A stretch of 64,000 bases of DNA, from assembly GCF_003019675.1 (NCBI RefSeq), contig NZ_CP028105.1, positions 1 through 64,000 on the forward strand, read 5' to 3'. Below, piece after piece: positions 2,111 through 59,010 of this stretch. A program made the translations under genes and the position numbers. The notes under the pieces were generated by a model. The model saw only the letters and a program-made list of their open reading frames with translations. It had not been told where the DNA came from and ran no database searches. Each line of letters opens with the position of its first letter. The stretch's first letter is position 1. This stretch comes from Fusobacterium ulcerans (GTDB lineage Bacteria > Fusobacteriota > Fusobacteriia > Fusobacteriales > Fusobacteriaceae).

Positions 2111-3088
2111 TTATTTTGTTCCTTTTTTATAAGCCCCTTCAGAACCAAACACATCTACTATTTTAGTTTTGTAATAAGCTTTCATTTCATCTTTTGCAGC
2201 TCCAAGATATTTTCTTGGGTCAAATTCTTTTGGATTAGTTCCAAGAACTCTTCTGATAGCAGCTGTGAATGCAAGTCTTCCGTCAGTATCAACGTTAATT
2301 TTTGCAACTGCTGATTTAGAAGCTTTTCTTAATTCAGCATTAGGAATTCCTATTGCATCTTTAACTTCTCCACCAAATTCTTTTATCATATCTGTATATT
2401 GCTTAGGTACAGCTGATGATCCGTGAAGTACGATAGGGAATCCTGGGATTCTTCTTTCGATTTCTTCTAATATATCAAGTCTTAATTTAGGATCTTCACC
2501 TGGTTTAAATTTATGAGCTCCATGAGAAGTTCCTATAGCTATTGCTAAAGAGTCAACCCCTGTTTTATTTACAAATTCTTCTACTTCATCAGGATTTGTA
2601 TAAGTATGGCTTTCAGCTTTAACATCATCTTCGATACCAGCTAGAACTCCTAATTCAGCTTCTACTGTTACATCAAATTTATGAGCATATTCCACTACTT
2701 CTTTTGATACTTCTATATTTTTTGCAAAATCATAGTGAGATCCATCAATCATTACTGATGAGAAACCAGATTCAATACAAGTTTTTACAGTTGCAATATC
2801 AGGTCCATGATCTAAATGAAGAGCTACTGGAATATCTGATCCCATATTTCTTGCTCTGTCTACAGCTGCTTTACCTAATAAAGGCACTACATCAGCTCCC
2901 ATGTAGCTAAGAGCTCCTTTTGAACATTGAAGGATTACTGGTGAACCCATTTCAGCACATGCTTCTACTATAGCAAGAGCCATTTCCATATTATTGAAGT
3001 TAAATGCAGGAACTGCATACCCTTCTTTATTAGCTTTAGCAAACATTTCTTTAGTATTAGAAAGTCCTAAATCTTTATAATTGTACAT
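2111..3088 (-). CDS. fba: Class II fructose-bisphosphate aldolase
   Basis: This is the zinc-dependent glycolytic aldolase that interconverts fructose 1,6-bisphosphate with dihydroxyacetone phosphate and glyceraldehyde 3-phosphate. The 325-residue protein has 'HLDHGPD' near residues 91-97 (catalytic aspartate and first zinc histidine), the 'MIDGSH' strand, 'EAELG', and the phosphate/zinc-binding 'GTSHGAHKF' and 'VLHGSSA' segments. Length and motif order fit the class IIB family. It is a single-gene transcript with a promoter at 3121-3149 and a terminator at 2056-2083. Confidence 0.95.
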   Translation of the reverse strand: MYNYKDLGLSNTKEMFAKANKEGYAVPAFNFNNMEMALAIVEACAEMGSPVILQCSKGALSYMGADVVPLLGKAAVDRARNMGSDIPVALHLDHGPDIATVKTCIESGFSSVMIDGSHYDFAKNIEVSKEVVEYAHKFDVTVEAELGVLAGIEDDVKAESHTYTNPDEVEEFVNKTGVDSLAIAIGTSHGAHKFKPGEDPKLRLDILEEIERRIPGFPIVLHGSSAVPKQYTDMIKEFGGEVKDAIGIPNAELRKASKSAVAKINVDTDGRLAFTAAIRRVLGTNPKEFDPRKYLGAAKDEMKAYYKTKIVDVFGSEGAYKKGTK

Positions 3089-3120
3089 TTATAGCCTCCT
3101 TGAAATTTTGTATATACTTA

Positions 3121-3149
3121 ATTCTACCAGATATTTAAAATAAAATCAA
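3121..3149 (-). promoter_or_regulatory. fba promoter
   Basis: Minus-strand TTGATT (-35, 3144-3149), 17-bp spacer and TAGAAT (-10, 3121-3126) lie about 30 bp before the aldolase ATG, with an AGGAGGC-type ribosome site in between. Confidence 0.7.
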
Positions 3150-3161
3150 TTCTATAATAGA

Positions 3162-3635
3162 TCATATTTTTACTCTTATTTGTTTTAAAATATGCCTAAA
3201 AAACCATTTTATCTTCATTCTCTTTTTTATAAGGAGAAGTGCTTGAGGTACCAGATCTATGACATTCTCTATGACATGCTGATATCTGTTGAATTTTCCA
3301 CTGATTATTTTCTTTGCACTCACTATCCAAGATATGAGCAGCAAGTTAAATATTCTTAAAAAATTTAATAAGAAATTAAACGCTCCCTCTTCAGTTACAT
3401 AAAAACTTCCTATTTTAAATAAAACTCTTCCTTCCTGTGTATAAAAAAGCTGGACAAGACATGTACTAAAATACAGAAAAAATAAAAATTTCATTTTTCC
3501 AATATTCTTTTTTAAATCTTTGTTCAAAATAAGGTTCATCACAAAAAGAATGACAGTTATTCCAAACATTATTTTTATATTTCCAATGAATATATTACTT
3601 AGAAGCAGTATAAATAAACTACTTTTTAATAACAT
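3162..3635 (-). CDS. Small integral membrane protein, possibly EcfT/CbiQ-like
   Basis: The 157-residue product has several hydrophobic helices (about 1-40, 48-62, 85-105) and a basic C-terminal tail rich in Lys and Arg. The '[19 protein letters not shown]' stretch loosely recalls the cytoplasmic coupling helices of ECF transporter T components, but the protein is shorter than a full EcfT and no ECF ATPase lies nearby. It overlaps the 3' end of serS by 17 bp and is probably cotranscribed with it. The function is unknown; the EcfT comparison is only a suggestion. Confidence 0.6.
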
Positions 3636-4890
3636 CTATTCCACCCATATATGGAACTAGAGCTTTTGGAATAAGGAATGATCCATCTTCCTGTTGATAG
3701 TTTTCCATAATAGCTACAAAAGTTCTTCCTACTGCAAGTCCTGATCCATTTAATGTATGACAGAACTCACTTTTTGAACTTCCATTAGGTCTGTATTTAA
3801 GTCCCATTCTTCTAGCTTGGAAATCTGTACAGTTAGAGCAAGAAGAAATTTCTCTGTATTTATTTTGAGATGGAAGCCATACTTCTAAGTCATAAGTCTT
3901 AGCAGCTGAGAATCCTAAGTCTCCAGTACATAGTTGAATAACTCTGTATGGAAGCTCAAGTCTTTGAAGAACCTCTTCAGCATTAACTACCATTTTTTCT
4001 AATTCTTCATAAGAAGATTCCTGAGTTGCTATTTTTACCATTTCCACTTTATTAAATTGGTGTACTCTGATGATTCCTTTAACATCTTTACCATATGATC
4101 CTGCTTCTCTTCTGAAACATGGAGAATAAGCTGTATAATATTTTGGTAATTCTTTTTCATCCAATATTTCTTTTCTATGGATATTAGTCATTGTGATTTC
4201 TGAAGTTGAAATAAGGAACATATCATCAGTAGTTCTATACATATCATCTTCGAATTTAGGAAGCTGTCCAGTTCCTTCACATATTTCTCTTTTTACCAAG
4301 AATGGAGTTATGTGCTCTGTATATCCATGTTCTGTAGTATGCATATCAAGCATAAAGTTAATAAGAGCTCTTTCTACTCTTGCACCCATTCCTCTATATA
4401 GTACAAATCTTGATCCTCCTAATTTTGATCCTCTTTCAAAATCAAGTATTCCAAGATTTTCTCCTATTTCCCAGTGAGCTTTTGGTTCAAATGTAAATTC
4501 TCTAGGTGTTCCCCATCTTCTTACTTCAACATTTGATTCTTCATCTTTTCCTACTGGAGTTCCTTCTTGATACATATTAGGAATTACCATTTGGAAATAA
4601 GTAAGTTTCTCATCTACTTCTGCTAATTTTGCATCAAGCTCTTTTATTTGAGCAGAAACTTTTCCCATCTCTTCTATTATTTGAGAAGCATCTTGTTTTT
4701 CCTTTTTTAATCTTGCGATTTCAGCAGATTCAGTATTTCTTTTTTGTTTTAAAAGTTCTACTTCACCTAGTATAGTTCTTCTCTCTTCATCAAGTTTGTC
4801 AAATTCTGCAAGGTCAATACTGCTGTTTCTATTAGCAAGCATCTCTTTCACAAGTTCTCTGTTCTCACGAATAAATTTTAATTCTAACAT
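3619..4890 (-). CDS. serS: Seryl-tRNA synthetase
   Basis: This is a class II synthetase that charges tRNA-Ser. The 423-residue protein has the N-terminal antiparallel coiled-coil arm (about 30-105) that contacts the tRNA variable loop. The catalytic core follows, with motif 2 ('[10 protein letters not shown]'), the serine-recognition 'TSEI' region and motif 3 ('[18 protein letters not shown]'). The length is normal for a bacterial SerRS. It sits downstream of the DUF2344 gene and the outer-membrane cluster on the same strand. Confidence 0.96.
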
Positions 4891-4921
4891 ATTTATCCCC
4901 TCTCTAAATTATTTATTATTT

Positions 4922-5515
4922 TTAAGAATTTATTTTATATCCACATCTTTTTATTTTTACATCCTGCTGCTCAATACCTACAAGCTCAAGATAGGAATTA
5001 GGTGAAGTGTTTATTATTTCCATTGTGATCTTATTGTTATCTCTTTTAAAAGACTTTATTCTTACTTTAAGATCTCTTGTGGCAATTTTTCCCTTCTTCT
5101 CCTTTACCTCTACTATTTCATCTCTGTTCAAAAGTTCTTCTAACTTTGAGATATCTTCTTCACTGCCTTCAATCTCATATATCATGACAGTATATTCTTC
5201 CATTATGGAGGATTTTCTAGGTACTTCCTCAACTTTATTTACTCTGAATCCTACAACATTGCTGCTATTAAGTCTTTTAAATACCTCTTCATTTGACATT
5301 GGAGTTTCCAATTCAAAATCCATCAGTTCATCATACGCTTCTGTTCCCAAGGACACAGGACTTCCAAAAGACATTTTAGGTCTTGGGTGGAATCCTTGAC
5401 TGTATTTTACAGGAATCTGAGATTTTTTTAAAAGTCTGTCAAAAAATCTGAGCAAGTCTAGGTGAGAGATGAATTTCATTTCTCCAAACTTATCAAAATA
5501 CACTCTTTTTTTCAT
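4922..5515 (-). CDS. DUF2344 (TIGR03936) family protein
   Basis: The 197-residue protein opens with the diagnostic 'KFGEMKFISHLDLLRFFDR' and 'YSQGFHPRPKMSFG' segments of the DUF2344 family. In many bacteria this domain is encoded next to, or fused with, a B12-binding radical-SAM protein. No radical-SAM partner is present within this window. The biochemical role is unknown; the conserved surface resembles RNA- or nucleotide-handling proteins, but that is speculation. Confidence 0.8.
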   Translation of the reverse strand: MKKRVYFDKFGEMKFISHLDLLRFFDRLLKKSQIPVKYSQGFHPRPKMSFGSPVSLGTEAYDELMDFELETPMSNEEVFKRLNSSNVVGFRVNKVEEVPRKSSIMEEYTVMIYEIEGSEEDISKLEELLNRDEIVEVKEKKGKIATRDLKVRIKSFKRDNNKITMEIINTSPNSYLELVGIEQQDVKIKRCGYKINS

Positions 5516-5598
5516 TTTTACCTCTGATAATATTTATTTTGTATTCTGTCATTTTACCACTTTATTCCAGATAGTTCAAACATGTTTTTAATTTCTTT

Positions 5599-6609
5599 CT
5601 ATTTTTCTTCTAATTTTTTTTCTATGGCTCTTACTCTTTTTAACAGCTCAGGAAGTTTTTTCCAAGAAACTCTTACTTTCAAATCCTCTTTGTGATCCAT
5701 TAGAGGATATCCAGAAAGCATTTGATTATCTGCCACATTTCCACTTACTCCTGATTTGGCAGCTATGACTACATTACTTCCTATCTTTAAGTGTCCTGCC
5801 ACTCCTACCTGTCCAGCAAGTGTAGTGTTATCTCCAACTTCTACACTTCCTGCTATACCAACTTGAGATATAAGAAGACAATTTTCTCCAATTATATCAT
5901 TGTGAGCTATTTGCACTAGATTATCTATTTTGGTAAATTTCTTAATAACGGTATTTCCAATAGTTCCTCTGTCCACAGTAGTATTAGCTCCAATTTCTAC
6001 TTCATCTTCTAATACAACATGTCCTATTTGATCTATCTTAGTGTTATTTCCATTGATTTTTATAAATCCAAATCCATCTGATCCAATTACTGCTCCTGGC
6101 TGAATTACACATTTTTTTCCAATTATGCAAAATTCTCTAATAGTTGCATTGGAATAAATAACTGTTCCTTCTCCTATTGTTACTCCTTCTCCTATTGTTA
6201 CATTAGGATGAATAACTACATTGTCTCCTATTACAGTATCATGTCCTATGTAAACATTTGGTGCCAATCTGACATTTTTACCTATTTTGCTGGAATCTTC
6301 TATCATTTTTTCAAAAGGTCTAGTTTCCCTCTTGAAAAAATTCAAAAGTTTTGGCATAAGTGTTCTTGGATTTTCTTTAACTTTCAAATATATTTTTCCA
6401 ATATTTTCTGGTAAAGGAATATCTGGTACTATTATTACTTTTGCTCTAGTTTCATGCAGCTTTTTTAAAAATTTTTCATCTGATGCAAATGTCAGACTGT
6501 CCTCTTGTGCTTGAAAAAAGGGAGCAAGCCCAGAAATATTTTCTAGACTTAAATCTCCCTTTACTTCACAACCAAGGAGGGCAATCAAATCAACTAACTT
6601 GTAGTTCAT
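5599..6609 (-). CDS. lpxD: UDP-3-O-(3-hydroxyacyl)glucosamine N-acyltransferase
   Basis: LpxD adds the N-linked hydroxyacyl chain in lipid A synthesis. The 336-residue protein has the N-terminal uridine-binding domain (about 1-100), a long left-handed beta-helix of hexapeptide repeats ('[16 protein letters not shown]' type) and the catalytic histidine in '[11 protein letters not shown]'. A C-terminal amphipathic helix rich in Lys, Arg and Leu completes the fold. It follows the Skp homologue with a gap of about 20 bp, the order bamA-skp-lpxD known from many diderm bacteria. It is direct evidence for an LPS-type outer membrane. Confidence 0.95.
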
Positions 6610-21890: not shown

Positions 21891-21915
21891 ATTGTTAGTT
21901 GTTTGTTAGCTATAA
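21891..21915 (+). repeat. attL core (25-bp direct repeat)
   Basis: The 25 bp starting ATTGTTAGTTG and ending TTAGCTATAA are identical to 58986-59010. The flanking bases differ on both sides (T versus A before, C versus A after). The copy lies between marR and the holin end of the prophage. Confidence 0.93.
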
Positions 21916-42195: not shown

Positions 42196-43134
42196 CTATA
42201 TAATTTTTATCTTAGTAAATAAATCTTCACCAATCCGGCCAACTGCAATATCAATATATTCTCTTTTCAACTCAATTCCTATTCCATGCATATTTAAACT
42301 TTTTGCTACTTTTAAAGTAGTTCCACTACCAAGAAAAGGATCTAAAACCATTCCATTCTCTGGACAGCCACTATCTAAACATCTTCTTACTAATTCTTCT
42401 GGAAAGATAGCAAAATGCCCCTCTTTAATTCCTTTAGTTGCTATGTTCCATACTGTTCTCATGTTCCGGCCATTCTCATTATAAACAGCTTTCCATTCTC
42501 TTCCTTCTCTCATTCCTGCTTTACTTTCTCCTGGATTTAATCTTTTTGTATTATCGGGCATTATTCCATTTCCAAATCCAGTTAATGTTTTATTGGAATA
42601 AGGCTCATACTGTTTTTTAAAGTAATACTTTTGTTCTTTGGAAAAAAAGAATACTTTTTCAAAATCATTAGTAAATCTATCATTTACTGATTCAGGAAGT
42701 ATATTGGGCTTTTGCCAAATAATCTCATTTCTTAATATCCACCCAGATTCAATCATTTTTATTGCTAATCTTTCAGGAATCATCATTTTAGATTTTCTCT
42801 TTATATTTGTTTTTCTTGGAACTGTTTTATATCCATTATTCTTTCCATGTCTTTTATTATTTGTTCCTCCAGCTAATTTAGCATTTACATTGCTGTAAGT
42901 ATCTCCCATATTCACAAATAAAGTTCCTGTTTTTTTTAATACTCTATTGACTTCATCAAATATATCCATAAGTTTTTCAAGAAATTCATTTACATCACTT
43001 TCAAGTCCTATCTGGCCGGAAACACCATAATCTCTAATTTGCCAATATGGAGGAGATGTTACAACACAATCTATACTTTCATCTTCTAAAGTTTTTAATA
43101 CTTCCAAAGAATTTCCATGCATTATTTTTATCAT
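42196..43134 (-). CDS. Phage DNA methyltransferase, beta class (m4C-type motif)
   Basis: The 312-residue SAM-dependent enzyme carries catalytic motif IV as 'TSPPYW' (26-31) near the N-terminus and motif I as 'VLDPFLGSGTT' near the C-terminus, the beta-class order. SPPYW favours N4-cytosine methylation, although some N6-adenine enzymes are similar. No cognate endonuclease is adjacent, so it is probably an orphan methylase protecting phage DNA. The middle region (about 80-160) is rich in Lys and Arg and may recognise the target. Confidence 0.87.
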   Translation of the reverse strand: MIKIMHGNSLEVLKTLEDESIDCVVTSPPYWQIRDYGVSGQIGLESDVNEFLEKLMDIFDEVNRVLKKTGTLFVNMGDTYSNVNAKLAGGTNNKRHGKNNGYKTVPRKTNIKRKSKMMIPERLAIKMIESGWILRNEIIWQKPNILPESVNDRFTNDFEKVFFFSKEQKYYFKKQYEPYSNKTLTGFGNGIMPDNTKRLNPGESKAGMREGREWKAVYNENGRNMRTVWNIATKGIKEGHFAIFPEELVRRCLDSGCPENGMVLDPFLGSGTTLKVAKSLNMHGIGIELKREYIDIAVGRIGEDLFTKIKII

Positions 43135-51824: not shown

Positions 51825-52478
51825 ATGATTAATAAAAAAATAAAATTAAAAAATTCATTATTAGATTTTGAATTTGAAGTTGAAAATTGTTGTCCACATT
51901 GTGGCGTCTACAATGACCCTGTAAAAATTAATGATTTACAAAATTTTTCTGATAAAGATGGTTTGATCATTTTCGCCTTGATTTTTAAATCCTCTTGTTG
52001 CCAAAGACTTTTTTCATCATTTTATATTTTTGATCAGCTCAATCGTAGAACCAAACACATCTTCACTTATCCCAGTGTAAAACCCCATGTTTTTGATAAA
52101 GGTTTACAAGAAGTGTCGCCAAACTTTATAAAAATTTTCAATCAGTCTAAAGCAGCAGAAGATCTTGGGAATTTTGAACTTGCTTGCATTGGATATAGAA
52201 CTTCTATAGAATTTCTTTTAAAAGATTTCTTAATTAGAGTCAGAAAAGAAGATGAAAACAAAATATCTAAGATGAAACTATATGATGTTATATCTCTTTT
52301 TGAAGAAAAAGAAATTTCTATATCAGCTGATGTAGTTCGTGCTTTTGGAAATGATAAAACTCATTATATTGCTAAATATGACTTTGAAATATCACAAGTA
52401 AAAACTTATTTAAAATTTTTAATAGATGCAATTGTTAAAGAGATTTATCTTGCAAATCCGCCGATAAAAGGTCGTTAA
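51825..52478 (+). CDS. DUF4145-like zinc protein (lysogenic moron candidate)
   Basis: The 217-residue protein has an N-terminal zinc ribbon (C23, C26 in 'CCPHCG', then C58/C59) and a helical C-terminal domain ('ACIGYRTSIEFLLKDFLIRVRKED', 'VVRAFGNDKTHY') typical of DUF4145. That domain is HEPN-like and frequent in restriction and other defence proteins. The gene is on the plus strand among leftward early genes with its own promoter, the pattern of a moron expressed in the lysogen. Its 3' end overlaps the convergent gene by 44 bp. Confidence 0.65.
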   Translation: MINKKIKLKNSLLDFEFEVENCCPHCGVYNDPVKINDLQNFSDKDGLIIFALIFKSSCCQRLFSSFYIFDQLNRRTKHIFTYPSVKPHVFDKGLQEVSPNFIKIFNQSKAAEDLGNFELACIGYRTSIEFLLKDFLIRVRKEDENKISKMKLYDVISLFEEKEISISADVVRAFGNDKTHYIAKYDFEISQVKTYLKFLIDAIVKEIYLANPPIKGR

Positions 52479-53058: not shown

Positions 53059-53697
53059 ATGACCATTGGTGAAAGAATAAAGAAAAAAAGAGAAGAACTA
53101 AAATTATCTCAAGAACAACTTGCTGAAATTATGGGTTATAAATCTAAAACATCTATCCATAAAGCTGAACAAGGGATTACAGATTTACCTCAATCAAAAA
53201 TAATAGAATTCGCTAGAGCACTTAAAACTACTCCTTCATATTTGATGGGGTGGGAAGAAAAAATAGAAAAATCAAATGCTGTTATTCTTGATAAATCTCA
53301 ATTTATATATGTCCCAGTGTATGGAAAAGCTTCTGCCGGAAATGGATATATCAATATGGATACTGTGCTTTATGACAAACTAATACATATTAATGGCTAT
53401 TCTCATGATAGCTTTTTGATTGAAGTATCAGGAGACAGTATGGAACCAACTATTTTAGATGGTGAATTTGTATTAGTAGATCCTACACGCACTGAAATTT
53501 GTGAAGGGAAGATTTATGTAATTACTTACAACAATGAAACTTACATTAAAATGATAGAAAAGCATGAAGAAGATGAAATTGTTCTGTTGAAAAGTGTAAA
53601 TCAAAAATACAGAGATAAAGTAATTAAAAAAGAAGAATTTGAGAATGTAAAAATAGAAGGCAGAGTTGTAAAAGTTATTTCAGAAAGAAATCTATAA
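53059..53697 (+). CDS. CI-like repressor with S24 (LexA-type) peptidase domain
   Basis: The 212-residue prophage repressor has an XRE HTH (about 1-60, 'LSQEQLAEIMGYKSKTSIHKAEQG'), a linker with the probable self-cleavage site A93-G94, and an S24 domain with S127 in 'SGDSMEPTILDGEFVLVD' and K164. RecA-stimulated self-cleavage would connect DNA damage to induction. It is the first gene of a rightward operon that runs on into cargo genes. Confidence 0.93.
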   Translation: MTIGERIKKKREELKLSQEQLAEIMGYKSKTSIHKAEQGITDLPQSKIIEFARALKTTPSYLMGWEEKIEKSNAVILDKSQFIYVPVYGKASAGNGYINMDTVLYDKLIHINGYSHDSFLIEVSGDSMEPTILDGEFVLVDPTRTEICEGKIYVITYNNETYIKMIEKHEEDEIVLLKSVNQKYRDKVIKKEEFENVKIEGRVVKVISERNL

Positions 53698-53742
53698 TAT
53701 GTATAAAACATATATAAAAATAAACTACTGGAGGAAAGAAAT

Positions 53743-54132
53743 ATGAAAAAGAAAATTTTAATCGGAATTGCAGCAGTAATTATTGTTTTAGGAGCACCAA
53801 GCACAATGTTTGGAGAGGATGCAACACCTGCTGAATATGTGGCTGCTTTAGGAAAAGCAACTCTGTATGCAAATCAAATGCATATGTCTAAAAAGGCTCT
53901 ACATGAACAATTGATTTCTGAGTTTGGAGAGCAATTTACAGAAGAAGCTGCTGATTATGCTGTTGAAAAAGTAAAAGCTAATTGGAAAGAAAATGCTTTA
54001 AGTAAAGCTAAAATGTATCAGAAAGAAATGAATATGTCAAGAAAAGCTGTTTATGATCAACTAATATCTGAATATGGAGAGAACTTTACAAAAGAAGAAG
54101 CAGACTATGCTTTAGAGCATTTGCCTAAATAG
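53743..54132 (+). CDS. Secreted Ltp-repeat protein, putative superinfection exclusion
   Basis: The 129-residue protein has a signal sequence (about 1-24) and two tandem Ltp (host-cell-surface lipoprotein) repeats: 'ALGKATLYANQMHMSKKALHEQL' and 'ALSKAKMYQKEMNMSRKAVYDQL', each followed by a 'FTEEAADYA' or 'FTKEEADYA' helix. Ltp of phage TP-J34 blocks DNA entry of related phages from the same genomic position next to the repressor. There is no lipobox cysteine here, so the product is either released to the periplasm or held by an uncleaved signal helix. Confidence 0.8.
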   Translation: MKKKILIGIAAVIIVLGAPSTMFGEDATPAEYVAALGKATLYANQMHMSKKALHEQLISEFGEQFTEEAADYAVEKVKANWKENALSKAKMYQKEMNMSRKAVYDQLISEYGENFTKEEADYALEHLPK

Positions 54133-54170
54133 AAAAAAATCTATAAAAATAAACTAAAGGGGATGAACTG

Positions 54171-55292
54171 ATGTTAGAAAAAAATATTAATTTAGAAGAC
54201 TATTTAGAAAATTTATCTAGATCTAAAGATAAAGATAGTTATTCTATGAGTATAAGAGAATTAGGAAGTATGTATAAAGAAGGATTAATAAATCTTTCTC
54301 CTGTTTACCAAAGAAAATTTCGTTGGGATAATTTAAAAGCTAGTAAATTAATAGAATCTATTTTTCTATCTATTCCCTTACCACCAATTTTCGTTTCTGT
54401 TAGAAATGGAAAATGGGATGTTGTTGATGGAGTTCAAAGAATTTCAAGTATTCTTTGGTTTTGTGGTATCTTAGATGAAACTACTGATAAAAGAGAAGAA
54501 TTAGAACTTATAGATTTAGAAAAATTAGAGCTATTAAATGGTAAAACTTATAGTTTTCTCAAAGATAAATATTCAAAAGATATTTTTAAATATTTTGATA
54601 TGAAAAGGCTAGATGTTACATTATTAACTTCTAATGATGTTGAATCAGAATATGATTTATTTAGCAGATTAAATACTGGTGGCTTAAATTTATCTTCACA
54701 AGAAATTAGAAATTTCTTGATTGTAAAATTAGACCCAATCTTATATGATGAACTTTTAAAAATTAGTAAAAATGAAGATATTACAAAACTTTTAGGAATT
54801 AGTAAAAAGCAACAAGATGAAGATTATGGAATGGAGCTGTTAGTGTATTTTATTATTATTTCAAAAACTAATAATAAATTTAAAAACCTAAAAAATCATG
54901 ATACCATAAAAGGAATTGATTTATATAAAGAATATGCTTCTAAACATCCTTCATCTAGAAGTAGATTCATTGATAAATGTATTGCTGATGTATTATATGA
55001 TGGAATCAATGTTGATGAAGAAATTCTAAATTTAAAAAAAACATTTAAAAAGATTGAAATAGAATTAGGTAATTCTCCTTTTTCTAAAGGACGAAAGTTT
55101 TCTCCTTTTATATATATTTGCTTAATTTCCTATCTTTGTAATAATTCTGATAAAACAAAAAAACTTACAGATATTCTTGAATTAATTCAGAAAAATGAAC
55201 TTTATAAAAAAAGTGCTGACAGAGGAGCAAATGTTGTTAAACAATTTATTACTGGAATAGAGATAGGGAGAGACATTTTAAAAGATGAATAA
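54171..55292 (+). CDS. DUF262 family protein
   Basis: The 373-residue protein has the DUF262 motif set: 'NLSPVYQRKFRWD' (about 41-53), 'SIFLSIPLPPIFV' and 'VVDGVQRISS' (D86-R90), the ParB-like nucleotide-binding signature. DUF262 is the GmrS-like half of type IV restriction enzymes and is common in defence islands; the nuclease DUF1524 half is absent. The stop overlaps the next (HEPN) gene start, so the two are probably expressed and act together. Confidence 0.8.
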   Translation: MLEKNINLEDYLENLSRSKDKDSYSMSIRELGSMYKEGLINLSPVYQRKFRWDNLKASKLIESIFLSIPLPPIFVSVRNGKWDVVDGVQRISSILWFCGILDETTDKREELELIDLEKLELLNGKTYSFLKDKYSKDIFKYFDMKRLDVTLLTSNDVESEYDLFSRLNTGGLNLSSQEIRNFLIVKLDPILYDELLKISKNEDITKLLGISKKQQDEDYGMELLVYFIIISKTNNKFKNLKNHDTIKGIDLYKEYASKHPSSRSRFIDKCIADVLYDGINVDEEILNLKKTFKKIEIELGNSPFSKGRKFSPFIYICLISYLCNNSDKTKKLTDILELIQKNELYKKSADRGANVVKQFITGIEIGRDILKDE

Positions 55293-55947
55293 AGACATGT
55301 TACTTTCACAAATTCAAATTTCTTTACAAAATAGAAAAAAAGAATTATTAGATTTTTTTATATTTATAAAAACGCAACAATCTGAAACTATTGAAGAAAC
55401 AATTAATAAATCATATATTCTTCTTCTATATGCTCATTGGGAAGGATTTATTAAAGAAACCTCTATCAAATATTTTTCATTTATTTGTTCTCAAAAACGT
55501 CAAGTTAAAGATTTGACCAATAATTTTTATTTAATATATTTTAAGGATATTTTAAAAAATTATCAAATTTCAAGAGCTATTTCAATAGAAAAAGAAATTT
55601 TAACTAAAACTCTTGATAAAAATAAAAAATTTAAAATAGAAATAGATAAAGAACACTTTCAAAAATATGTTCTTGGAATTGAAGATAATCTAAAATTTAA
55701 TAATTATAAAAATATTTGTGAAATACTTGATTATGTTTTAGAAGATCTTACAGGAAAATTTAATATTATTTTAGAAAAATTAGTTCATAATCGTAACTCT
55801 ATTGCTCATACAGGCATAAAGGCTGATGAAAATACTTACACAGATATTGCTGATATTGAAGATATGAAAAATGCCATTATAAAAGAAATGGATAATTTTT
55901 ATCTTTTTGTTGAAAGTAATATAAAAAATGATAGATATTTAATATAA
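55285..55947 (+). CDS. HEPN-domain protein (MAE_28990/RiboL-PSP-like)
   Basis: The 220-residue helical protein has the HEPN signature 'LVHNRNSIAHTG' with R170-x4-H175, the catalytic pair of HEPN ribonucleases, and 'LLLYAHWEGFIKE' in its first half, typical of MAE_28990-like HEPN proteins. It overlaps the DUF262 gene by 8 bp. HEPN proteins of this type are thought to cut RNA in abortive infection or to form toxin-antitoxin pairs with their neighbour. Activity here is inferred. Confidence 0.75.
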   Translation: MNKDMLLSQIQISLQNRKKELLDFFIFIKTQQSETIEETINKSYILLLYAHWEGFIKETSIKYFSFICSQKRQVKDLTNNFYLIYFKDILKNYQISRAISIEKEILTKTLDKNKKFKIEIDKEHFQKYVLGIEDNLKFNNYKNICEILDYVLEDLTGKFNIILEKLVHNRNSIAHTGIKADENTYTDIADIEDMKNAIIKEMDNFYLFVESNIKNDRYLI

Positions 55948-55976
55948 AATACTATATTTCAATTTGAGGAGAACAA

Positions 55977-56744
55977 ATGATTTTATATAATTGTGATGTT
56001 ATTGATGGATTAAAAAAAGTAGAAAATGCATCAGTAGATTTATTATTTATTGATCCCCCTTATAACTTAGGGAAAAAATATAAGGGAACTATTGATCATT
56101 GGAAAACTGATGAAGAATATTTAGAATGGTGTTATAGTTGGTTAGAGGTAAGTCTTCAAAAATTAAAACCCAATGGTTGTTTATATTTTATGAGTTCAAC
56201 TCAATATGGAGCATATTTTGATATTTATTTAAGAGAAAAGATGCATATTCTCTCTAGAATTATATGGGAATATGATAGTTCTGGGGTTCAAGCAAAAAAA
56301 CATTTTGGTTCTTTGTATGAACCTATCATCTTTGCTGTAATGAATAAAAAAAACTACACTTTTAACTTTAAAGATATTATGGTTGCAACTAAAACTGGAG
56401 CACAAAGAAAATTAATTGATTATAGAAAAAATCCTCCTGTTCCTTATAATGAAGAAAAAGTACCTGGAAATGTGTGGTATTTTCCACGAGTAAGATACAG
56501 AATGAAAGAATATGTTGAACATCCTTCCCAAAAACCTGAAGCTTTATTAGAAAGGATTATAAAAGTTAGCACTAATGAAACAGATACTATATTAGACCTT
56601 TTTGCTGGTTCTTTTTCTCTAGGAATGGTTTGTAAACGTCTTAATAGAAAATATATAGGAATTGAAAAAAGTAAGGAATATTACACAGTTGGAATTGAAA
56701 GATTAAAAGATAAGAAGGAAGTACTAAATGAATGTGATTTATAA
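55977..56744 (+). CDS. DPPY adenine-specific DNA methyltransferase (YhdJ-like)
   Basis: The 255-residue enzyme has catalytic motif IV 'FIDPPYNLGK' (25-34) near the start and motif I 'ILDLFAGSFSLGM' near the end (beta class). The middle 'WEYDSSGVQAKKHFGSLYEPI' and late 'HPSQKPEALLERII' segments resemble YhdJ-type N6-adenine methylases. It follows the HEPN gene by 29 bp and overlaps the GNAT gene, within the repressor-linked operon. The second methylase of this prophage; no restriction nuclease is adjacent. Confidence 0.87.
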   Translation: MILYNCDVIDGLKKVENASVDLLFIDPPYNLGKKYKGTIDHWKTDEEYLEWCYSWLEVSLQKLKPNGCLYFMSSTQYGAYFDIYLREKMHILSRIIWEYDSSGVQAKKHFGSLYEPIIFAVMNKKNYTFNFKDIMVATKTGAQRKLIDYRKNPPVPYNEEKVPGNVWYFPRVRYRMKEYVEHPSQKPEALLERIIKVSTNETDTILDLFAGSFSLGMVCKRLNRKYIGIEKSKEYYTVGIERLKDKKEVLNECDL

Positions 56745-57147
56745 TGGCATTAAATATTCTACTTTTAAAAAAGAAATAGAAAATATAAATATTTCTGAAA
56801 TAACTATTGAGATTGTAGATGACAGCCTCCATTGTTTAAAAAATAATTTTGTCCATATTTATAGTTTTTATTCCACAAAAGAAAAACAAGGTTATGGAAG
56901 TAAAGCTTTAAAAGAAATCATAAAAATAGCTAACAAATATCAAGTTAATTTATATCTTTTTCCAGCTGGAACCAGTGAAAGATTTTATAAAAAATTTGGA
57001 TTTATTTATCCTGAAAATTCTAAAAATTATTATATCCCTATGAAGTTATACTTTTTGTGCAATGAATATAGCCCAATATACCAAAAGATAAAATCAGTTA
57101 AAATTATGTCTTTATTAAAAAAAATAAAACTTTTTTTATTTAATTAA
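56728..57147 (+). CDS. GNAT-fold acetyltransferase-like protein
   Basis: The 139-residue protein has the acyl-CoA loop 'QGYGSKALKEIIKIA' (Q54-x-Y-G57 motif A) and 'FYKKFGFI' in motif B, as in GNAT enzymes. It overlaps the 3' end of the adenine methylase by 17 bp, so both are likely made together. A small GNAT next to a DNA methylase recalls Mu Mom-like base modification, but peptide or small-molecule acetylation is equally possible. The C-terminus is strongly basic and hydrophobic. Confidence 0.65.
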   Translation: MNVIYNGIKYSTFKKEIENINISEITIEIVDDSLHCLKNNFVHIYSFYSTKEKQGYGSKALKEIIKIANKYQVNLYLFPAGTSERFYKKFGFIYPENSKNYYIPMKLYFLCNEYSPIYQKIKSVKIMSLLKKIKLFLFN

Positions 57148-57339: not shown

Positions 57340-57795
57340 ATGAAAAAAAATTTCAAAGATACTTTTAGCCATTACTTTAACTTTCATCTTAATCACATGT
57401 GGGACTTCTGAAGCTCAAAAATCCCTCGAAAATACTTTAAAAGATGTTAAAACTGGAAAAATTTTAGATCCATCTGATAAAAATTCAGCAATTACAGTAG
57501 CTATTTTTAAAAAAATGGCTTACCAAGTGAAAAAACAACTGAAAATGGTAATATTGCTGATATAGAAGTCAGTATAAAGGCTGTTGATTTAAGCTTATAC
57601 ATGAAAGAATATATGACTTTGATGATACCTCTTTCCTTTGCTGGAGCAACTGATGAAGAAATAGAAGAAGATGCAACTAAATTTTTTACAGCTCTAGGAA
57701 CTCGTAGTGATTTAAAATATATAGAAACTAATATTGTTATTAGAGAAGAGGTTATGGATGTAATAACTGGGAATGTTTCAAAAATATTCAAATAA
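57340..57795 (+). pseudogene. Frameshifted lipoprotein gene
   Basis: The ATG at 57340 (after AAAGGGAG) opens a frame that stops after 23 codons. The next frame gives a clear lipoprotein signal ('LLAITLTFILITCGTS', lipobox L-I-T-C). A further shift at the 7-A run near 57510 is needed to join 'NGLPSEKTTENGNIADIEV' and the 64-codon C-terminal part that ends at 57795. Both breaks lie in poly-A tracts (8 A at 57343-57350 and 7 A). Either the gene is decayed, phase variable, or the assembly has homopolymer errors. Corrected, the protein would be about 150 residues. Confidence 0.72.
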
Positions 57796-57867
57796 AAAAA
57801 CAGCTCCTACGCCAAATAGGAACTGTTGAACATATGCACAACTAAAGTCATGCGATATATAATAGGT
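57793..57867 (-). ncRNA. Candidate small RNA antisense to the int leader
   Basis: On the minus strand an extended -10 box TGATATAAT (TATAAT complement at 57874-57879) would start a transcript near 57867. About 40-75 nt later a terminator is met: AACAGTTCCTA/TAGGAGCTGTT (57799-57827, 11 bp with one U-G only on this strand) followed by seven T. No coding potential. The match of promoter, spacing and terminator suggests a short RNA of about 75 nt. Confidence 0.45.
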
Positions 57868-57936: not shown

Positions 57937-58962
57937 ATGCGTAATGCTAATGGATATGGCAGTGTATATAAGCTGTCTGGAAAAAGGAGAAGACCTTATG
58001 TTGCAGTTAAAACTGTAAGTTTAAAAGGAGGGATACAAAAAAGAGTTATCCTAGGGTATTATGAGGGTAGTAAAGAAGCTAAAATAGCTTTAGCAGAGTA
58101 TAACAGGGATCCTTATGACCTAACAGCTGCTAAAATAACATTTTATGAAGTATATGAGAAAATGATGAAACAAGATATTGAAAAAGTAACCTCTAAAACT
58201 TATAGCTTCAAAAAATCTCTTGTTAAATTTTTTGAACCTGTCTACAACACACCAATAAAAGATATCAAATTAGCTATACTACAGCAATTATTTGATTCAA
58301 ATAAATCATATTCTTATGGAACTCTAAGCCTAAAAAAATCTTTATGTATACAAATTTTTGATTTTGCATTAAAAAGAGAGTTGGTAGAAAAAAATTATGG
58401 TATACTTATAGATATTAATAAGAAAAATGAAAAAGTTATTCAAAGAAAAATATTTACTTCTGATGAAATTGATAAATTGTGGGAATTGTCAGGAATACAA
58501 GATGTAGATATAATATTAACAATGATTTATACTGGTTTAAGAATAGGCGAATTATTAGAGTTAAAAATATCAAGCATTAATCTAGAAGACAGATATTGTA
58601 TAGCAGGATCAAAAACAGAGGCTGGAAAAGACAGATTAATTCCATTCAATTATAGAATTTTACCTGTAATAACAAGATATATTTCAACTGAAAAAATATA
58701 TTTGTTCCAGAGTATTAGAAATAAAAAAATAAAATATACTAATTGGAGAGCAACAAAATTTATTCCTTTAATGGAAAAAATCAAGATGGAACACACAATA
58801 CATGATTGTAGGCATACTTTTGCCAGTCTACTGAGTAACGCTGATGCTAATACTACAGCTATAGCTAAAATTATTGGACACAGTAATTATGATATGACTG
58901 AAAAGATTTATACTCATAAGGATATTGAAGAGCTTAAAAAAGCAGTTGATAGAATTATATAA
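57937..58962 (+). CDS. int: Tyrosine-family site-specific integrase
   Basis: The 341-residue phage integrase has an AP2-like arm-binding N-terminus (about 1-60, 'NGYGSVYKLSGKRRRPYVAVKTV'), a SAM-like core-binding domain (about 68-155) and the catalytic domain with R202 ('TGLRIGELLEL'), the beta-hairpin lysine, H289-x2-R292 ('HDCRHTFA'), H315 ('GHSNYDMT') and nucleophile Y325. All catalytic residues are present. It lies 23 bp before attR with AAAGGACG as ribosome site. Confidence 0.95.
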   Translation: MRNANGYGSVYKLSGKRRRPYVAVKTVSLKGGIQKRVILGYYEGSKEAKIALAEYNRDPYDLTAAKITFYEVYEKMMKQDIEKVTSKTYSFKKSLVKFFEPVYNTPIKDIKLAILQQLFDSNKSYSYGTLSLKKSLCIQIFDFALKRELVEKNYGILIDINKKNEKVIQRKIFTSDEIDKLWELSGIQDVDIILTMIYTGLRIGELLELKISSINLEDRYCIAGSKTEAGKDRLIPFNYRILPVITRYISTEKIYLFQSIRNKKIKYTNWRATKFIPLMEKIKMEHTIHDCRHTFASLLSNADANTTAIAKIIGHSNYDMTEKIYTHKDIEELKKAVDRII

Positions 58963-58985: not shown

Positions 58986-59010
58986 ATTGTTAGTTGTTTG
59001 TTAGCTATAA
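58986..59010 (+). repeat. attR core (25-bp direct repeat)
   Basis: Identical to 21891-21915. It lies 23 bp after the int stop codon, the normal place for attP-derived sequence, and marks the right prophage boundary. Confidence 0.93.

Follow-up and report, generated by a model that had tools for sequence, protein, structure and literature searches.

A DUF262-HEPN-methylase trio behind the repressor of a Fusobacterium ulcerans prophage: a recurrent, exchangeable unit and candidate anti-phage cassette

We analyzed a stretch of 64,000 nucleotides from Fusobacterium ulcerans (assembly GCF_003019675.1, contig NZ_CP028105.1, positions 1 to 64,000, forward strand; hereafter the window), in which a prophage repressor is followed by genes for an Ltp-repeat exported protein, a DUF262 protein, a HEPN protein, a YhdJ-like DNA adenine methylase, and a GNAT-like protein. 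Three of these genes, DUF262-HEPN-methylase, form a recurrent unit that is separable from Ltp and GNAT and has its catalytic motifs intact, and the trio has been swapped whole as a cassette between prophages. With confidence that is evenly balanced, we propose that the trio is an anti-phage cassette that a temperate phage carries in its lysogeny operon, and in which a DUF262 NTPase, a HEPN RNase, and a DNA adenine methylase would together mark self and cut RNA. The cassette is probably made together with the repressor.

A recurrent unit exchanged between prophages

The trio is found in two independent relatives. In a prophage of another Fusobacteriota family (L003/L014), DUF262, HEPN, and methylase (53, 60, and 72% identity) are flanked by repressor and integrase, and on the viral contig L099 the trio lies directly behind a repressor at 43–65% identity. 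The DUF262 proteins of the window, L014, and L099 form one clade with a support of 100 in the DUF262 tree. Single-protein scans of viral contigs gave no relative, whereas alignment queries did find relatives. The exchange itself is visible when L099 is compared with prophage L016 (genome G021): the two have in common a repressor region at 94% identity, their similarity ends just past the repressor stop codon (5859 in L099, 5593 in L016), and it returns at 86% after the cassette (8476 and 10135, respectively). The differing stretch of L099 holds DUF262, HEPN, and a beta methylase only, and that of L016 holds a different DUF262, a 209-aa protein with an R-x4-H motif, an Eco57I-type methylase, and a single gene on the reverse strand. 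Terrisporobacter phage TVCOM_ph1 has the order regulator, protease, DUF262, HEPN, Eco57I methylase, integrase, the trio being annotated there as two hypothetical proteins and a methyltransferase. Adjacency of DUF262, HEPN, and methylase was seen in L014, L099, L176, and further loci, including unrelated hosts. This recurrence bears out the original prediction made for this locus, in so far as it coupled a DUF262/HEPN response module to a methylase.

The same prediction had extended the set to four genes by including GNAT, with Ltp in front, and here it did not stand. Judged by where its relatives occur, Ltp is an independent neighbor outside the trio: it stands without the trio behind the repressor in another genome of the genus (L170, 91% identity), it is absent from the L003/L014 locus, and its phrog_4980 match places it in a known superinfection-exclusion family of phages. 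A signal peptide was judged by eye at its N-terminus; no lipobox cysteine was found, and the protein contains no Cys at all. On similar grounds GNAT is an accessory passenger that is not conserved with the trio, as it is missing from both trio relatives (L014, L099) and has only marginal or weak matches in 98 Fusobacteriota genomes. A four- or five-gene system including GNAT and Ltp was thus rejected, Ltp being found without the trio and GNAT missing from its relatives. Co-occurrence in other genomes, which had been suggested as a check, is seen for DUF262, HEPN, and methylase and not for GNAT with them; free variation of neighbors, which had been named as refuting, is true of Ltp and GNAT and false of the trio.

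The three proteins

Pfam agreed with the original domain calls for the repressor, Ltp, DUF262, HEPN, and methylase; the call for GNAT is weak, its match falling short of the cut-off (Table 1). The DUF262 protein is a predicted sensor of the ParB/Srx type and carries the NTPase motif DGVQR (D86GVQR90). No DUF1524 HNH nuclease was matched by Pfam in this protein or in neighboring genes. Its structural model (pLDDT 89.7) has as nearest folds BrxU (Z 8.0, residues 21–373), ParB with a CTP analogue (Z 6.7), SspE, and DndI; the root-mean-square deviation (rmsd) from BrxU is 14.1 over 281 residues, indicating a domain-by-domain likeness and not one rigid body.

The HEPN protein is a member of the HEPN superfamily by its helical fold and catalytic motifs, and its RNase activity is predicted. 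It bears R170-N-S-I-A-H175 (R-x4-6-H) and E53-x3-K57, and in an alignment of 51 HEPN sequences R170, N171, H175, and E53 are invariant and K57 is conserved in at least 90%. The best fold match of its model (pLDDT 91.5) is the HEPN protein 4nqf (Z 10.5, rmsd 3.6 over 139 residues), followed by HepT toxins and Csm6; helical bundles readily score middling Z values, and the assignment is based on the sequence profile and motifs. A PDB sequence search with the HEPN profile gave no convincing match.

The methylase exceeds the cut-off of the PRK11524 equivalog (383 against 292 bits), has the motifs DPPY and FAGSF, and shares 56% identity with E. coli YhdJ across 236 residues, in which the central block is conserved. 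Because it is homologous to YhdJ, which methylates ATGCA*T (PMC9239280), its target is predicted to be ATGCAT. In E. coli, yhdJ lies on the chromosome, flanked by fis and yhdU. A YhdJ relative on an E. coli plasmid adjoins an annotated type II restriction endonuclease (REase), which we count in favor of a self-marking role.

Orphan methylases are common in phages, and one could suppose that this one merely shields phage DNA from ATGCAT-cutting host enzymes, DUF262-HEPN being a separate exclusion pair. The phage does have a second, different methylase (42196–43134, minus strand, 312 aa, SPPY motif, phrog_67), which is on the structural-gene strand and similar to the trio methylase only locally. 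However, the trio methylase belongs to the lysogeny operon, is encoded on the other strand from the structural genes, and accompanies DUF262-HEPN in three prophages; we consider the anti-restriction role very improbable. As separate observations on the composition of the whole window, CTGCAG does not occur (10.3 sites expected), and GATC, with 93 sites where 164 are expected, is depleted.

Methylase linkage and the proposed mechanism

The wider family was sampled with HEPN-anchored scans (80 genome and 27 viral loci) and a second, DUF262-anchored scan (53 viral loci, most with an adjacent HEPN). Across 103 pairs the order is DUF262, then HEPN, and the two genes overlap by a median of 4 bp; all 103 carry an R-N-x3-H-type motif and 101 carry DGxQR, a conservation that stems in part from selection, since the loci were collected for their similarity to the window HEPN. 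Given this order and overlap in 103 loci, together with the trio in two independent relatives, the arrangement is beyond chance. Among 55 non-redundant viral loci, 11 have a repressor as the gene immediately preceding DUF262. With respect to the methylase, one lies at most two genes away in 36 of 106 DUF262-HEPN loci. Methylases make up 37 of 389 near genes and 1 of 487 far genes by a profile seeded from near genes, and 45 of 364 against 5 of 253 (p 8e-7) by a neutral motif detector not trained on these loci. On the DUF262 tree (a quick tree with some long branches) the methylase label changes 7 times, against 30 when shuffled. The methylases are of beta, Eco57I-type, and C5 classes. BsuBI/PstI REases are also present in 16 of the 36 methylase loci, and none has an REase without a methylase; both profiles were built without iteration, since fused methylase-REase proteins merge iterated profiles.

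From these results we propose the following course of events. The methylase would mark ATGCAT in the DNA of host and prophage. Incoming unmarked DNA would be met by the DUF262 protein, a sensor NTPase as in BrxU and SspE but devoid of the HNH nuclease; this protein would then release or activate the HEPN protein, which would cleave RNA and abort the infection. The lysogen would in this way exclude unmarked phages, with the prophage and its progeny bearing the mark, and Ltp would be a separate exclusion gene at the level of the envelope. That DUF262 gates HEPN is suggested because the nuclease domain is missing and HEPN follows in an overlapping frame; the stable link to the methylase, including in loci without an REase, points to either the state of DNA methylation or the methylase as the input.

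Several points weigh against this self-marking mechanism. The exact beta-type trio is known from three loci only, and profile comparison does not support the L016 protein in the HEPN position as a HEPN. Avoidance of ATGCAT in the prophage is not clear (11 sites against 11.9 expected under a higher-order model), and the 13 sites in the whole window against 23.6 expected from dinucleotide shuffles show that the outcome depends on the null model. In addition, no methylase lies near 70 of the 106 sampled pairs, and DUF262-HEPN can therefore function independently of it. This would suit a type IV-like system resembling PD-T4-2, in which DUF262-HEPN responds by itself to phage DNA modification or some other signal from the phage and the methylase is loosely linked, especially as two of the nearest DUF262 proteins of solved structure, BrxU and SspE, recognize modified DNA (PMC10952713). 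We consider such a system improbable, given that methylase linkage is strongly enriched and clade-stable and that the trio is exchanged whole.

Two further difficulties are that DUF262-HEPN resembles an add-on in the 16 methylase loci with a BsuBI/PstI REase, and that one sensor family would have to read the marks of methylases with differing specificity. Both would be accommodated by a guard model comparable to PrrC with EcoprrI, in which the methylase protein, or its restriction-modification (R-M) system, restrains DUF262-HEPN, and a phage that inhibits or removes the methylase fires it; the methylase would then be bait and not a self mark. This model keeps some weight because the methylase classes are interchangeable, such that no single sensor need read many marks, and because those 16 loci are full BsuBI/PstI-type R-M operons with DUF262-HEPN; R-M-linked HEPN RNases are also proposed to act in this way (PMC3710099). 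On the other hand, there is no REase to protect in the window, L014, L099, L030, L049, and others, and very unlike methylase folds would all need contact with DUF262 or HEPN. We therefore regard guarding as unlikely, and favor reading of the mark.

Other arrangements were noted in the sampled loci. BsuBI/PstI-type R-M operons with DUF262-HEPN occur in several phyla (L022, L026, L035, L040, L050, L053, L055, L092, L123), and methylase and REase are fused in one protein in L034, L038, L063, and L101. In prophages of other bacteria (L100, L105, L109, L110, L112, L117, L121), DUF262-HEPN is convergent with a 416–439-aa N6 methylase, and several of these have a repressor before DUF262. In L172 (Fusobacteriota, 2649–5707), a C5 methylase has as neighbors a DUF262 protein and one resembling nucleotidyltransferases, and HEPN is absent. 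Downstream of DUF262 in L018 (3551–5626) lies a 691-aa protein that has a real C-terminal Eco57I methylase domain and an N-terminal part bearing RNKYVHG; as a possible HEPN-methylase fusion it is no more than a lead, as its N-terminal part is HEPN by position and R-x4-H motif only and the profile comparison was negative (probability 2%). No second such fusion was found in 98 genomes, and according to PMC3710099 HEPN is not fused to methylases.

Comparison with known systems

The original prediction knew of no named system for its exact four-gene set, but the combination is not unknown: DUF262 plus HEPN makes up PD-T4-2 (Vassallo et al. 2022), a pair with proven anti-T4 defense in E. coli (PMC9519451, PMC10952713). 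Like the window pair, it combines a DUF262 protein with a PF18735-type HEPN, and the PADLOC model of component A (PD-T4-2_A, PDLC04027) matches the window DUF262 at 9.9e-26. In contrast, the component B model (PD-T4-2_B) matches neither the window HEPN (E up to 1) nor five relatives (E up to 10), and the accounts of PD-T4-2 available to us describe no methylase. Table 1 of Anantharaman 2013 (PMC3710099) places MAE_28990 HEPN in an operon with ParB nuclease and DNA methylase genes, the same three domain types in one operon as in the window trio. In the part of that paper available to us this is one table line on genomic association, with no experiment, which does not cover methylase classes, phylogenetic stability, lysogeny modules, or cassette exchange.

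Among the PADLOC profiles a different one, NsnA (PDLC03877, 1.2e-41), matches the window DUF262 best. The NsnA/NsnB system, which we take to be Menshen, has an OLD-type AAA ATPase (NsnB) as partner, whereas the window has HEPN and methylase instead; such an ATPase adjoins DUF262 in L009 and L012. GmrSD, BrxU, and SspE likewise have a DUF262 NTPase with the DGxQR motif, and the window model aligns with BrxU. In BrxU and SspE this NTPase is coupled to a nuclease responding to DNA modification (PMC10952713), but the window protein is without DUF1524/HNH and has a separate HEPN protein in its stead. PrrC-EcoprrI also ties a HEPN RNase to a DNA modification system, although PrrC comes with an ABC ATPase and a type I R-M system. 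The window methylase is YhdJ-like but tied to DUF262-HEPN, a tie that chromosomal yhdJ of E. coli does not have; and type II R-M systems have a methylase as the window does, but the locus has no REase, a classical REase domain having been found by Pfam and PADLOC in none of the six operon genes.

In summary, the DUF262-HEPN defense pair and the HEPN-ParB-methylase association are already known. Our literature search found no published experimental description of a DUF262-HEPN-YhdJ-type trio, nor did we find described the trio as a lysogeny-operon unit, cassette exchange, the clade-stable methylase partnership, or a YhdJ-type version with a testable target.

Prophage setting and neighboring genes

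The six genes sit in a prophage of ~37 kb between two perfect copies of a 25-bp direct repeat (0 expected from shuffles), the second directly behind the integrase; genes for terminase, portal, major head, and tail sheath are inside. Our check of the open reading frames gave the same six genes, all on the plus strand from 53059 to 57147, and the same successive gaps (45, 38, −8, 29, and −17 bp from repressor to GNAT) as originally reported, and the idea of a non-structural operon behind the repressor is supported. The repressor is the probable first gene of the operon. A single transcript with the repressor is plausible, because promoter-like sites are at chance level (41 against 36 ± 5 expected) and the only terminator-like site between operon genes is a 5-bp stem within the methylase gene. 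An Rfam search gave no match.

Table 1. Features of the prophage lysogeny region in the window
Feature	Coordinates	Strand	Evidence
Prophage repressor	53059..53697	+	HTH_3 PF01381 and S24 peptidase PF00717 (Pfam); phrog_4
Ltp-repeat exported protein (superinfection-exclusion type)	53743..54132	+	Two Lipoprotein_Ltp repeats, PF07553 5.5e-42; phrog_4980
Trio gene 1: DUF262/GmrSD_N, predicted ParB/Srx-type NTPase sensor	54171..55292	+	PF03235 3.6e-24
Trio gene 2: HEPN protein, predicted RNase	55285..55947	+	PF18735 7e-23; PF18737 3e-21
Trio gene 3: beta-class N6-adenine DNA methyltransferase, YhdJ-like	55977..56744	+	N6_N4_Mtase PF01555 1.2e-54
GNAT-like protein	56728..57147	+	Acetyltransf_1 PF00583 0.0012, below Pfam cut-off; 17-bp overlap with methylase
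Tyrosine integrase, end of lysogeny module	57937..58962	+	PF00589 2.6e-24
Left attachment-site repeat (attL candidate), 25 bp	21891..21915	+	Perfect copy at 58986–59010
Right attachment-site repeat (attR candidate), 25 bp	58986..59010	+	Perfect copy at 21891–21915

Upstream of the repressor region, among minus-strand early genes, lies a DUF4145 protein (HEPN-related family, phrog_1305; 51825–52478, plus strand) with a relative in phage phiHugo at 67% DNA identity. Between GNAT and integrase is a decayed gene (57341–57797, plus strand), lipoprotein-like and small, whose frame is split over two frames. In related Fusobacteriota prophages (L153–L170) the stretch preceding the integrase is a cargo hotspot that differs in gene content in each, with for example single 644–704-aa proteins, and it may hold unknown defense genes.

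Implications

If the self-marking mechanism is true, DNA methylation marks would be united with RNA-cleaving abortive infection, defenses that are usually kept apart. It would also account for a frequent and uncharacterized gene neighborhood, and the lysogeny operon would offer a slot where temperate phages swap whole exclusion cassettes. Because the methylase is predicted to target ATGCAT, a mark that yhdJ can switch in laboratory E. coli, the self/non-self model is open to a direct test there. More tentatively, and with rather more doubt than belief, the trio may stand for an R-M-like class in which self is defined by an interchangeable methylase, the mark is read by a DUF262 NTPase, and the output is RNA cleavage by a HEPN RNase. 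Temperate phages would carry it right behind the repressor as a cassette open to exchange, and their immunity region would combine repressor immunity with methylation-based exclusion.

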